NCBI GenBank assembly: GCA_018268465.1
Contig: JAFDWN010000031.1
Location: 1 to 41,256 of the forward strand
Length of the DNA: 41,256 bases
Direction of reading: 5' to 3'
Source: Actinomycetota bacterium
GTDB taxonomy: Bacteria; Actinomycetota; Actinomycetes; Mycobacteriales; Mycobacteriaceae
In this document: positions 2-41,256 of the stretch, one piece after another
Numbering within the stretch: the stretch's first letter is position 1
Layout: every line of letters begins with the position of its first letter
Notes under the pieces: generated by a model
What the model saw: the letters and a program-made list of their open reading frames with translations, nothing else
Database searches by the model: none
Told to the model about the DNA's origin: nothing
Translations under genes and position numbers: made by a program

Positions 2-712
2 AGCAATCTGCGCAATCCGGTGCGATTCCATCAGGCGATCACCGCGGCAGGCCGTGACTACAACACCTTCGTGGAGGTCAGTCCCCACCCCCTGCTGCTG
101 CACGCCATCTCCGACACCCTCGGCAGCGCCGAGCACTACACGGTGCCCACGCTGTGGCGCGATACCAACGACACGCTGACGTTCCACGCCAACCTGAACA
201 CCGCCCACCTGCCGCAGGCCCAGCATCCCGCCGAACCGCACCCGCGGCTGCCGCGCACGCCGTGGCAGCACACCCGCCATTGGATCGACGCGGCACCTAT
301 CCAGGCCATTCAGTTGCTGAAAGCGCCTGCTGTCGAGGATGTTCCGGTGCAGAACGGTTCGGCGGCGGTCAACGGCTTCCGCGCGACGCTGCGCGACAGC
401 GACCCCGGCGAGCGTCACGATCTGCTGGCCGACCACGTGGGGATGCTCGTCGCCGCGGTGATGGGGATGCCACCCGCACAGCGGCTGGAACCCACCGCCG
501 GTTTCTTCCAGCTCGGCATGGACTCGATGATGAGCGTGCTGCTGCAACGCGCCCTTGTGGAGACACTCAGCGAACCGTTGCCCACCACCATCGTCTTCGA
601 CTATCCGTCGGTCGAAGCGCTCACCAATTATCTGGCGACCACACTTCCCGAGCTGGCCGAGGCGACAGACCTCGCGGGCGCGGGACAGGTGTCGCTACCC
701 GGGAAAGGCTGA
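2..712 (+). CDS. Type I polyketide synthase, C-terminal part (AT end plus ACP), 5' end outside window
   Basis: This is the last 236 residues of a modular PKS; the reading frame is open through the left edge. Residues 1 to about 95 are the C-terminal end of an acyltransferase domain ([20 protein letters not shown], then the post-AT HTRHW linker). After only some 40 linker residues comes an acyl carrier protein, about 135-215, with phosphopantetheine serine S175 in LGMDSMMS. No ketoreductase, dehydratase or enoylreductase lies between AT and ACP, so the visible end looks like a KS-AT-ACP module without reduction. The ACP (MGMPP...FFQLGMDS) resembles, from memory, the C-terminal ACP of mycobacterial PpsB. 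The gene precedes the ppsA-like gene by 121 bp. Whether a KS is present upstream cannot be seen. Placement in the pps-type pathway is inferred from context. Confidence 0.85.
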   Translation, partial: SNLRNPVRFHQAITAAGRDYNTFVEVSPHPLLLHAISDTLGSAEHYTVPTLWRDTNDTLTFHANLNTAHLPQAQHPAEPHPRLPRTPWQHTRHWIDAAPIQAIQLLKAPAVEDVPVQNGSAAVNGFRATLRDSDPGERHDLLADHVGMLVAAVMGMPPAQRLEPTAGFFQLGMDSMMSVLLQRALVETLSEPLPTTIVFDYPSVEALTNYLATTLPELAEATDLAGAGQVSLPGKG

Positions 713-29156: not shown

Positions 29157-31364
29157 TCACACACCGTTGGCGGCAGCCCTGGCCTTGAACTCGCGACGCC
29201 GGCGGTGAAGGATCGGCTCGGTGTAGCCATTCGGCTGCGCCGCACCGGACAGGATGAGTTCCTGCGCGGCCTGGAAGGCGATGCTGGCCTCCGGATCCGG
29301 GGCCATCGGCCGGTAGGTGGGGTCACCCGCGTTCTGCTGGTCGACCACCGCCGCCATCCGTCGCAGGCTGGCCTTCACATCCTCCTCGGTGATCACGCCG
29401 TGACGCAGCCAGTTGGCCAGCAGCTGACTGGAGATCCGCAGCGTCGCGCGATCCTCCATGAGCGCGACGTCGTGGATGTCGGGCACCTTCGAGCAGCCGA
29501 CACCGGCGTCGATCCAGCGCACCACGTAGCCGAGGATCGACTGGCAGTTGTTGTCGACCTCCTCGTGGATCTCCTCGGGCGCCCACGCCAGTTCCTTGGC
29601 CAGTGGGATCGTGAGGATGTCGCCGATCGAGGTGCGCGGCGTTCCTGCGAGTTCCTTCTGCACCTCGAAGACGTCCACTTCGTGATAGTGCATCGCGTGC
29701 AGGGTGGCCGCCGTCGGCGAGGGCACCCACGCGGTGGTGGCGCCCGCCTTGGGCTGGCCGATCTTCTGCGCGACCATATCGGCCATCAACTCGGTCATGG
29801 CCCACATACCCTTGCCGATCTGCGCCCGCCCGGAGAAGCCGGTGGCCAGGCCCGTGTCGACGTTGGCATCCTCATAGGCCAGGATCCACGGCTGGCTCTT
29901 CATCGCACCCTTGCGGATCATCGGGCCGGCATCCATCGACGTGTGGATCTCGTCGCCGGTGCGGTCAAGGAATCCGGTGTTGATGAACACCACCCGGTCG
30001 GCCGCCGCCTTGATGCACGCCTTGAGGTTGACCGTGGTGCGTCGCTCCTCGTCCATGATGCCGACCTTGATGGTGGCCTGGGGCAGACCGAGCACATCTT
30101 CGACACGGCTGAACAGCTCGCAGGTGAACGCGACCTCGTCGGGTCCGTGCATCTTGGGCTTCACGATGTAGATCGACCCGGTCCGGCTGTTGACGAGCGG
30201 ACCGTTGGCCGCACCGGATTTGAGCCCGTGCATGGCGATGAGGCTGGTGAACAGCGCGTCCTGAATGCCTTCCGGCACCTCCGCGCCGTCCTGGCCGTCG
30301 GCATCGACCACGATCGCGTCGTTGGTCATCAGATGGCCGACATTGCGCACGAACAGCAGGCTGCGCCCCGGCAGCGTCACCTCCCCGCCGTCGGGAGCGG
30401 TGTAGGTGCGGTCCTCGCTGAGCACCCGGGTGAACGTGGCGCCGTCCTTGGTCACCGCTTCGGCGAGGTCACCTTTGTTCAACCCCAGCCAGTTGCGGTA
30501 TCCGAGCACCTTGTCGTCGGCGTCGACGGCGGCCACCGAATCCTCGAAGTCCATGATCGTGGTGATGGCGGACTCCAGGACGACATCCTTGATACCCGCG
30601 GCATCGGTGGCGCCGATGGGCGAGTCGGGGTCGATGACGATCTGGATGTGCAGACCGTTGTTGGCCAACAGGATCGACGAGGGGCTGCCCGCCTCGCCCG
30701 TATAGCCGACGAACTGTTCGGGTGCGGCCAGCCCGGTGGACAGCCCGTCACCCAGGGTCGCCAGCAGCTGGCCGTCGTCCACGGTGAAGCCGGTGGCATC
30801 GACGTAGGACCCGCCGGCCAGCGGCACCGCGCGGTCCAGGAACGCACGCGCGTAGGCGATCACCTTGTCACCGCGCGCCTTGTTGTAACCCGATCCCTTC
30901 TCCGCACCGTCCTCTGCGGGAATCACGTCGGTGCCGTACAGCGCGTCGTACAGCGAGCCCCAGCGCGCGTTGGCGGCGTTGAGCGCGAACCGGGCGTTGA
31001 GCACGGGCACCACGAGCTGCGGCCCGGCGGTCGTGGTGATCTCGTCGTCCACCCCGGCCGTGGTGATGGTGAAGTCGCCGGGCTCGGGCAGCAGATAGCC
31101 GATGTCGACGAGGAACTGCTGGTAGGCCTCCGGATCCAGGGGCCCGATCACCCGCTGGCGGTGCCACTTGTCGATTTGGGCCTGCAGTTCGTCACGACGT
31201 GCGAGGAGCGCCTCGTTCTGCGGGGTGAGATCGGCGATCACCTTGTCCACGCCGGACCAGAACGTCTCGGGGTCGAGGTCGGTACCAGGCAGCGCCTCAT
31301 TGGTGATGAAGTCGTAGAGCACCTTGGCCACACGGAGGTTGCCCACCGCCACGCGTTCGCTCAT
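29157..31364 (-). CDS. glcB: Malate synthase G
   Basis: A protein of 735 residues, near the usual length (741 in M. tuberculosis). It condenses glyoxylate with acetyl-CoA to malate and CoA in the glyoxylate shunt and is needed for growth on fatty acids. Seen: the N-terminal [13 protein letters not shown], the TIM-barrel segments [19 protein letters not shown] (catalytic Arg), [15 protein letters not shown] (metal-binding Glu) and [11 protein letters not shown], and the C-terminal helical domain with [12 protein letters not shown] carrying the catalytic Asp. The ATG at 31364 is preceded by GGAGCGGAGGCGG and overlaps the stop of a tiny upstream ORF (ATGA). It therefore appears to be translated through a chain of mini-cistrons. 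The neighbour downstream is the VWA gene. Confidence 0.97.
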
Positions 31365-31399
31365 GCGCGATCCGCCTCCGCTCCTCGCTGGTCGGTCAT
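31361..31399 (-). CDS. Mini-cistron c (12 aa), overlaps glcB start
   Basis: An ORF for [12 protein letters not shown], whose TGA overlaps the glcB ATG as ATGA. The purine-rich codons for RGAEA double as the ribosome-binding sequence of glcB. The peptide itself has no recognisable function; the arrangement suggests translational coupling or attenuation. Its coding status is inferred only from layout. Confidence 0.45.
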
Positions 31400-31434
31400 G
31401 CGCGATCCGCCTCCGCTCCTCGCTGGTCGGTCAT
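31396..31434 (-). CDS. Mini-cistron b (12 aa), identical to mini-cistron c
   Basis: A second copy of the [15 protein letters not shown], identical at the DNA level. Its start overlaps the stop of mini-cistron a and its stop overlaps the start of mini-cistron c, each as ATGA. The GGAGCGG in mini-cistron a provides its ribosome-binding sequence. Confidence 0.45.
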
Positions 31435-31463
31435 GCGCGATCCGCTCCTGGGTTGAACGTCAT
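31431..31463 (-). CDS. Mini-cistron a (10 aa), overlaps the stop of the upstream gene
   Basis: An ORF for [10 protein letters not shown]. Its ATG overlaps the TGA of the preceding 343-residue gene (ATGA) and has a strong GAGAGG five bases upstream. Its TGA overlaps mini-cistron b. It shares the ending GADRA with the repeated units, so the repeat may have arisen by copying an older leader ORF. Confidence 0.45.
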   Translation of the reverse strand: MTFNPGADRA

Positions 31464-32491
31464 CGTTTCCTCTCTAGGGCTGACGGCACCGCGGGCACCG
31501 CTGCATCACGCGTACCATGCGCGCCGTTTGTCGAGCTTACCCATGAGTAATGGCAGGCACTGACACCCTGGTCGCTCGTCGGGGCCCGCACTGCCCGTTC
31601 GGTCGGGTCGGGTCCGGGCTCCTGGGTGAGCAGCCATCCGCACCGGTCGGCCAGCGCGGCCCGCAGCGGCGCCGCCCGCGCGGCGATGTCCTGCTGAGCC
31701 CGCACGTACTCGGCTCGGCCGGCAGCGGTCTCGATCGCGATCGGGGCGAACCCGTACTCGCGCAGATCGTAGGGGCTGGCCCGCATGTCGAGTACGCGGG
31801 CGTCGGCGGCCAGCACCAGGCAGTCCACCACCAGCTCGGACGGCACCAGCGGGCCCAGCTTGTATGCCCACTTGTAACAGTCCATCGCCGCGTGGATGCA
31901 CCCCGGCTGCTCGGTCGCCCGCTGACGGTCACGGCTCAGCGGCTCGCAGTTGCGGGCGACCGCCGGCGCGGTGAAGAACCGGTAGGCGTCGAAGTGGCTG
32001 CAGCGCAACGGCATCGACTCGACCACCGCGTCGGTGCCCGCCGCGCCGAGACGCAGCGGAACCTGGCTGTGACGCACCGCGGGCGCGCGGTAGACCATCG
32101 CCCACTCGTGCAGCCCGAAGCAGTTCAGCCGCGGAGCCCGCCCCTGGGTGGCGCGCAGCAGATCCCCGACGAACGCCACGGTCTGGACGCGCGCCGCAAG
32201 GTGCGCGGCGGTCACCGTCACACCGTCGCGGTGGCCGCCGTAACCGCCGCGGCCCAGGTAGCTCCGGGACGCGGCGCCGCCCAGTACCACGCCGAAACCC
32301 GGATGCCACACCCGCAGCTGGCGCGGACGCAGGTTGTAGTAGGTGAACAGGAAGTCCCACACCGGATGCGCGCGGCCGGCCTGCCGACGGCGCAGGTGCG
32401 GTTCCAGGAACGCGTCGACCCGATCGCGGTGCGCCTGCGCCCGCGGAACCCAGACCCGCTCGTCCCACACCTCAGACACGGTGGGTTCCAT
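31460..32491 (-). CDS. Conserved actinobacterial protein (often labelled 3-methyladenine DNA glycosylase)
   Basis: A soluble protein of 343 residues. The block WVPRAQAHRDRVDAFLEPHL, HPVWDFLFTYYNLRPRQLRVWHPG, and CIHAAMDCYKWAYKLGPL with DLREYGFAPIAIET is a conserved actinobacterial family that automated pipelines often call 3-methyladenine DNA glycosylase; I see no HhH-GPD or AlkA/Tag motif that would prove this. ATG 32491 lies inside the 3' end of the upstream CBS gene (20-bp overlap); a GTG at 32479 would give a protein four residues shorter and is equally possible. The last 40 or so residues are Ala/Thr/Ser-rich and look unstructured. It is co-directional with glcB and tied to it through three mini-cistrons. 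Confidence 0.75.
   Translation of the reverse strand: MEPTVSEVWDERVWVPRAQAHRDRVDAFLEPHLRRRQAGRAHPVWDFLFTYYNLRPRQLRVWHPGFGVVLGGAASRSYLGRGGYGGHRDGVTVTAAHLAARVQTVAFVGDLLRATQGRAPRLNCFGLHEWAMVYRAPAVRHSQVPLRLGAAGTDAVVESMPLRCSHFDAYRFFTAPAVARNCEPLSRDRQRATEQPGCIHAAMDCYKWAYKLGPLVPSELVVDCLVLAADARVLDMRASPYDLREYGFAPIAIETAAGRAEYVRAQQDIAARAAPLRAALADRCGWLLTQEPGPDPTERAVRAPTSDQGVSACHYSWVSSTNGAHGTRDAAVPAVPSALERKR

Positions 32492-37846: not shown

Positions 37847-41256
<3,410 letters not shown>

Follow-up and report, generated by a model that had tools for sequence, protein, structure and literature searches.

A tandem repeat of chained mini-ORFs before glcB, a probable copy of a short MIRU-like element found at mycobacterial gene starts

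Is the chain of very short open reading frames that leads into the malate synthase gene of this mycobacterial genome a local peculiarity of glcB, or a copy of something that occurs elsewhere, and how would the gene behind it be translated? The stretch analysed here (the window; 41,256 nt) is part of contig 24 of a 6.9-Mb genome, G000. Its glcB (29157..31364, - strand, ATG at 31364, start ATGAGCGAACGCGTG) encodes malate synthase G of 735 aa, matching NF002825 with 1270 bits (cut-off 565) and TIGR01345 with 1183 bits. On the same strand, and to the base as the first-pass annotation had it, three mini-ORFs of 10, 12 and 12 codons (31431..31463, 31396..31434 and 31361..31399) joined by ATGA overlaps span the distance from the stop of a 343-codon ORF (31460..32491) to glcB. 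The TGA within the ATGA at 31463-31460 is the stop of the 343-codon ORF, and the TGA of mini-ORF3 overlaps the glcB ATG.

Mini-ORF2 and mini-ORF3 are identical, and so are the sequences of two 35-bp units, one adjoining glcB (31365..31399) and one upstream of it (31400..31434), each made of ATGACCGAC followed by the core CAGCGAGGAGCGGAGGCGGATCGCGC, which recurs at further loci of the same genome. The proposed 35-bp tandem duplication is thereby borne out, Tandem Repeats Finder (TRF) reporting an array of period 35 with 2.5 copies and 98% matches. The first unit (31435..31463) is diverged and 29 bp long; aligned by eye, it corresponds to a full unit minus 6 bp in frame, with 2 core substitutions. 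Every unit of the window opens with ATGA and has a length of 3n+2, so each mini-ORF closes in the TGA of the next ATGA, an automatic consequence of unit length that had been pointed out correctly. A chain of three ATGA-linked mini-ORFs (8-15 codons) appeared in none of 200 first-order Markov sequences of the window's - strand, a test that is weak alone since one duplication of length 3n+2 creates the links automatically; the dispersed family described below is the stronger evidence against chance. MITE and REP elements are defined by their terminal or internal inverted repeats. No inverted repeats of at least 6 nt were found within 31360-31470, and the RNA folding energy of the array region was no better than that of shuffled sequences.

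In its own genome, the element lies at seven loci before a gene start, with 0-2 mismatches in the core. A search with a 27-nt core at up to 3 mismatches found 6 places in 4 loci and none in the control; with 1 mismatch, pafC has two copies of this 27-nt part in front of it, and a ccsA/resC-type gene and qcrA have one each, every copy ending in the ATGA of the gene (Pfam supplied the identities of pafC and qcrA, and that of the ccsA-type gene through its copy in a relative). Three further loci, whose genes were named by protein reading, carry it before an enoyl-CoA hydratase-like gene (C15:41199, exact degenerate core), an acyl-CoA dehydrogenase-like gene (C70:365269, 2 mismatches) and a helicase-like gene (C70:101726, 1 mismatch, beside a run of N). 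Another own-genome search at up to 3 mismatches gave 46 matches versus 33 in the control, so matches with 3 mismatches are mostly chance. One 2-mismatch match (C43) was set aside, its appearance being unlike the element. On contig 61 a decayed array of period 33 was observed (40111-40197, L397), in which ATGA has become ATCA and the overlaps are lost.

Beyond this genome, the core was found with up to 3 mismatches over 28 nt in 119 of 297 genus genomes, own included, while a reversed-pattern control found none; the exact degenerate core, searched without RTGA in the pattern, is present in 39 of 118 genomes, again with the own one. A scan of genome contigs gave at least 116 stretches, and among the matches listed 79 of 80 are titled Mycobacterium or Mycolicibacterium and 1 “Actinomycetes bacterium”, the named records being non-tuberculous mycobacteria. 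No match was found in the phage records searched. In a literature search that was not specific to 35 bp, with subscription journals mostly outside it, none of the titles listed describes a 35-bp repeat class. A dispersed mycobacterial repeat of 20 nt, considered as possibly the same element, proved to be a different thing: GCGAGCAGACGCA(A/G)AATCGC, which also occurs in variant forms and whose arms pair across opposite strands, was found in 3 of 18 genus genomes (G073, G105 and G226; L149-L176) and is absent from G000.

From 164 loci we obtained 153 distinct arrays (identical flanks were merged and arrays near a locus end left out), of which 104 are single, 33 double, 10 triple, 5 quadruple and 1 sextuple, with spacings of 32 (8), 34 (3), 35 (55), 36 (5), 37 (1) and 55 nt (1). 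Most start at DTGA, that is (A/G/T)TGA, and finish at the ATGA or GTGA of a gene start. In 114 of the 153 arrays a DTGA precedes the core by exactly 10 nt, whereas offsets 16-79 give 1.6 arrays on average and never more than 7; in 127 of 150 the distance to the left DTGA is in frame. On the right, 148 of 150 RTGA-ended arrays lead into a long ORF (at least 60 codons, or 40 if running off the locus), an edge partly built in by the genus and genome-contig search patterns, which contained RTGA. With a pattern lacking RTGA, ATGA comes next at 7 of 7 own-genome sites, and among 20 stretches chosen mostly for RTGA not having been seen (one of them the own C15 site) it was present in 15 and absent in 5. 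Openness and GC3 were used to choose a coding frame upstream, and in 99 of 150 arrays the stop of this frame coincides with the left DTGA; among the others, 31 have no clear upstream frame, 8 lack a DTGA at 4-11 nt ahead of the core, 7 stop earlier, 4 have upstream frames running through to the right ATGA and 1 has too short a flank. Two irregular edges were also seen: in L299 the right-hand start is altered (ATTAGTGCAG versus ATGAGTGCAG on the left), and in L137 the repeat begins two bases earlier (ATATGA).

Grouping of the 148 proteins encoded downstream gave 59 clusters, of which 32 have a single member, the largest being MrpF (15), cytochrome c assembly protein (11), acyl-CoA dehydrogenase-like (9), PafC (8) and Mrp/NADH antiporter subunit (8). 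For qcrA and pafC, taken as an illustration, the search pattern has no match in the stretches shown for the 29 other loci of each, some of the qcrA stretches being wrong ones or without the junction, and a diverged copy is visible by eye in L333 and in L360. In L333 (qcrA of G040) the diverged 33-nt copy before ATGG is seemingly fused in frame to the qcrA start as an N-terminal extension (by eye). Copy number ranges from 1 to 6 units and varies between species before the same gene cluster (one genome per species), and in 16 of 49 tandem arrays the units are not alike in their variable nucleotides.

An element that inserts by duplicating a target of the form DTGANNNNN would leave similar bases behind the left DTGA and at the beginning of the gene. 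Such a likeness is present in the 113 arrays with DTGA at offset 10: the left side and the gene share the base at position 5 in 81% (35% with shuffled partners), at position 6 in 48% (30%) and at position 7 in 42% (30%); over positions 5-9 there are 290 agreements in 565, against 189 +/- 10 and a maximum of 229 in 2000 shuffles. That the agreement falls with distance means short or variable duplications, or later change. The cleanest case is L399, with ATGAGCACCAGCGA on both sides.

At glcB itself, the comparison is with sites that lack the element, which is absent within 400 nt upstream of the gene at 40 of 40 loci in 39 other genomes (located by tblastn); the comparison is not a close one, the relatives being about 80% identical upstream at best. 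A Shine-Dalgarno-like site of the GAGG/AGGAG type lies directly before the glcB start at 37 of these 40 loci, and the gene opens with ATGACCGAT in 17 of 40, with ATGACTGAT in 11, ATGACTGAC in 4 and ATGACCAAT in 3, besides others. In the window a probable ancestral glcB Shine-Dalgarno (AGAGAGGA; SD-like AGAGAGGAAACG) now stands before mini-ORF1 (31468..31475, - strand), to judge by its position, its duplex energy and the sequence in relatives, some of which (e.g. L025, L036) have a similar one at the same place directly before the ATGAC of glcB. Moreover, the window units open with ATGACCGAC, resembling the commonest glcB start of the relatives, ATGACCGAT. From this echo, and from the Shine-Dalgarno before the ATGAC start in relatives, the array probably entered the glcB start and parted the gene from its own ribosome-binding site. 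The right copy in the window, where glcB now opens with ATGAGCGAA, differs from the ATGACCGAC of the units, so at this locus a target duplication rests on the relatives, 17 of 40 of which start with ATGACCGAT. The sequences show dispersal to start codons in many species of the genus, the left DTGA and right gene-start edges of most copies, signs of a duplicated target and a glcB free of the element in all relatives read. The insertion at glcB is itself reconstructed from these signs, and we consider it very likely that a MIRU-like mobile element, interspersed in mycobacterial genomes, entered glcB at its ATGA start and gave rise to the array by subsequent tandem duplication.

Could the chain instead be a link in an operon, by which ribosomes travel from the 343-codon gene to glcB? 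The ATGA overlap that had been reported between the two is real, the TGA of the 343-codon ORF lying within the first ATGA, and the upstream frame stops at the left DTGA in those 99 of 150 arrays elsewhere. The 343-codon ORF, which has no match in Pfam or NCBIfam and beyond which lie two genes for CNNM-type membrane proteins, has a homolog at 27 of the 40 glcB loci of relatives; yet in 0 of 27 does it stop at the ATGA of glcB. Its stop lies 11-80 nt upstream of the gene in 23 of the 27, often with a palindrome between, 115 nt upstream in 1 and about 640 nt in 3. Most aligned homologs are conserved to about codon 290-298, and the extra 45 codons of the window (299-343), which cross the glcB leader, have a GC3 of 0.64 versus 0.90 before them. 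The tail of this ORF is therefore a probable run-on through the glcB leader and its overlap with the array probably a by-product, so the linkage that the first-pass annotation had drawn from the overlap is probably incidental. We regard passage of ribosomes from this gene into glcB as unlikely.

A translational role of the array at glcB is plausible and gains from the way the short ORF closes. Thirteen arrays have units of 3n+1 (31 or 34 nt), whose mini-ORF cannot close at the ATGA of the gene; 12 of these 13 precede a gene with an other-frame stop at +5 to +7 (such starts as ATGAGTAA and ATGACTGA), versus 5 of 126 for 3n+2 units. In single-unit 3n+1 arrays this stop is found in 10 of 10, in 5 of 5 gene clusters, orthologs being among the ten, and the mini-ORF ends there. 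Off-length copies, too, thus close their short ORF over the gene start. Counting against such a frame rule, among first units other than 35 nt lengths of 3n+2 are not enriched (13 of 32).

How, then, would ribosomes reach glcB? Each full unit carries GGAGG, a Shine-Dalgarno-like motif brought by the element itself: on the - strand, the copy at 31375..31379 in the last unit lies 10 nt before the glcB ATG and that at 31410..31414 lies before mini-ORF3. Computed against the 16S tail, the duplex energy comes to -6.4 kcal/mol at mini-ORF1, -7.1 at mini-ORF2 and -10.1 at both mini-ORF3 and glcB, beside -6.5 to -11.6 for six hand-picked glcB Shine-Dalgarno sites of relatives. Ribosomes would load at the old glcB site, now ahead of mini-ORF1, and after every 10-12 codons terminate and resume at an ATGA, arriving at glcB with the third restart; the GGAGG of full units would also permit a direct start at glcB. 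Termination-reinitiation helped by this motif is the likely mechanism, and the element would act as a portable translation-coupling spacer at little cost to the host. A strong Shine-Dalgarno is missing from many other copies (mean -6.8 over 149 arrays), and reinitiation would matter more for these. The mini-peptides are probably without a function of their own. Conservation of the core is as high at third codon positions as at the others, which gives no sign of peptide selection and argues for copying of DNA rather than a working peptide. The first base of codon 8, where T would make a stop, is never T in 117 units (A 76, G 34, C 7), an observation that is suggestive only.

The element might also act at transcription, as a promoter or an altered leader, glcB being transcribed from within the array and the mini-ORFs being by-products. 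A MIRU-bearing senX3-regX3 intergenic region can drive regX3 expression (PMC4213456), and MIRUs lie inside 5′ UTRs of M. bovis (PMC4128351). Against this, the window units contain no TA dinucleotide and hence no TANNNT, the mycobacterial -10 motif according to PMC4128351, and a promoter-like palindrome with a fitting TAAGCT (31534-31539) lies upstream of the array. The palindrome, TTACTCATGGGTAA (31537..31550, - strand), is an imperfect copy of TTACCCnnGGGTAA, which relatives carry in their glcB leaders (24 of 40 loci, at up to 2 mismatches and within 200 nt) and which is possibly an operator or part of a promoter. By eye, TTACCCnnGGGTAA sometimes provides the TAA stop of the gene upstream of glcB. 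Transcription from within the array would also leave unexplained why a stop at the gene start is kept even in off-length units, and we hold it to be unlikely too, slightly more so than the passage of ribosomes from the 343-codon gene.

Least tenable is a purely local 35-bp duplication that happened to make overlaps and serves as a tuning or phase-variable leader of glcB, for which two identical tandem units of a length that makes overlaps automatically might speak: the same core at several other own-genome loci and in 119 of 297 genus genomes, mostly at start codons, refutes it as the origin and makes it highly improbable as a whole, and the phase variation by copy number once suggested finds no support, since adding or losing a 35-bp unit preserves the 3n+2 geometry and the frame cannot switch.

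Returning to the mobile, start-codon element, a fuller description of its habits can be offered tentatively, with about as much doubt as confidence, from the sequences compared. An element with a core of ~26 nt, no inverted repeats and no gene of its own would be moved by some agent acting in trans and placed, in sense orientation, where start and stop overlap in (A/G)TGA, with duplication of the gene's first bases. The short ORF in each copy would close exactly at the next start at any length, often with a ribosome-binding site, so that the element could enter operons (pafBC, qcrCA, Mrp, cytochrome c assembly) without silencing them. Annotators should be warned that start codons, ends of upstream ORFs and leaders beside such arrays are easily misread.

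Among known systems, the nearest are the mycobacterial interspersed repetitive units (MIRUs), reportedly described by Supply et al. in 1997 and long used in tuberculosis typing. Like them, the element is mycobacterial, interspersed, often tandem and apparently mobile, occurring at many loci of a mycobacterial genome (seven in G000) and in 119 of 297 genus genomes. As described for MIRUs (PMC12548453), its copies sit at start codons and carry an internal ORF that is coupled at -4 nt to the gene, some exceptions apart (127 of 150 with an in-frame DTGA, 148 of 150 leading into a gene ORF). It differs in size, being mostly 35 bp (29 bp in the window's first unit) with spacings of 32-37 nt and one of 55, versus 40-100 bp (PMC2734929) or 46-101 bp (PMC3914561) for MIRUs, given for 41 loci in these two papers, and in that the named matches listed lie in non-tuberculous mycobacteria. 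A sequence taken for a MIRU-10 typing primer, which may be incorrect, had no match within 3 mismatches in 8 genomes and none in the genome contigs, and was found in 2 of 396 genomes at 1-2 mismatches with no tandem array there. We would therefore file the element as MIRU-like and not as a MIRU, given its size and a likeness drawn from site and organization rather than from M. tuberculosis MIRU sequences. A second likeness is to coupling driven by short ORFs through termination-reinitiation, treated in a review (PMC12548453): here too, short ORFs overlap the next start and may deliver ribosomes, with the difference that they are part of a dispersed repeat, three of them following one another in a chain. 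A case of a gene with and without a MIRU is given in PMC4128351, where parA is leaderless in M. marinum and its M. bovis ortholog has a 77-nt 5′ UTR that is one class I MIRU. Little is understood of the movement of MIRUs and of their effects on the genes that receive them, as PMC2734929 and PMC4128351 state in part. The interest of the present array lies in the element itself, which is very short, common in the genus and clear in its sites; with its place at start codons, many empty sites, a readable target duplication and a frame rule, it renders both MIRU questions, that of movement and that of effect on genes, testable in laboratory strains.
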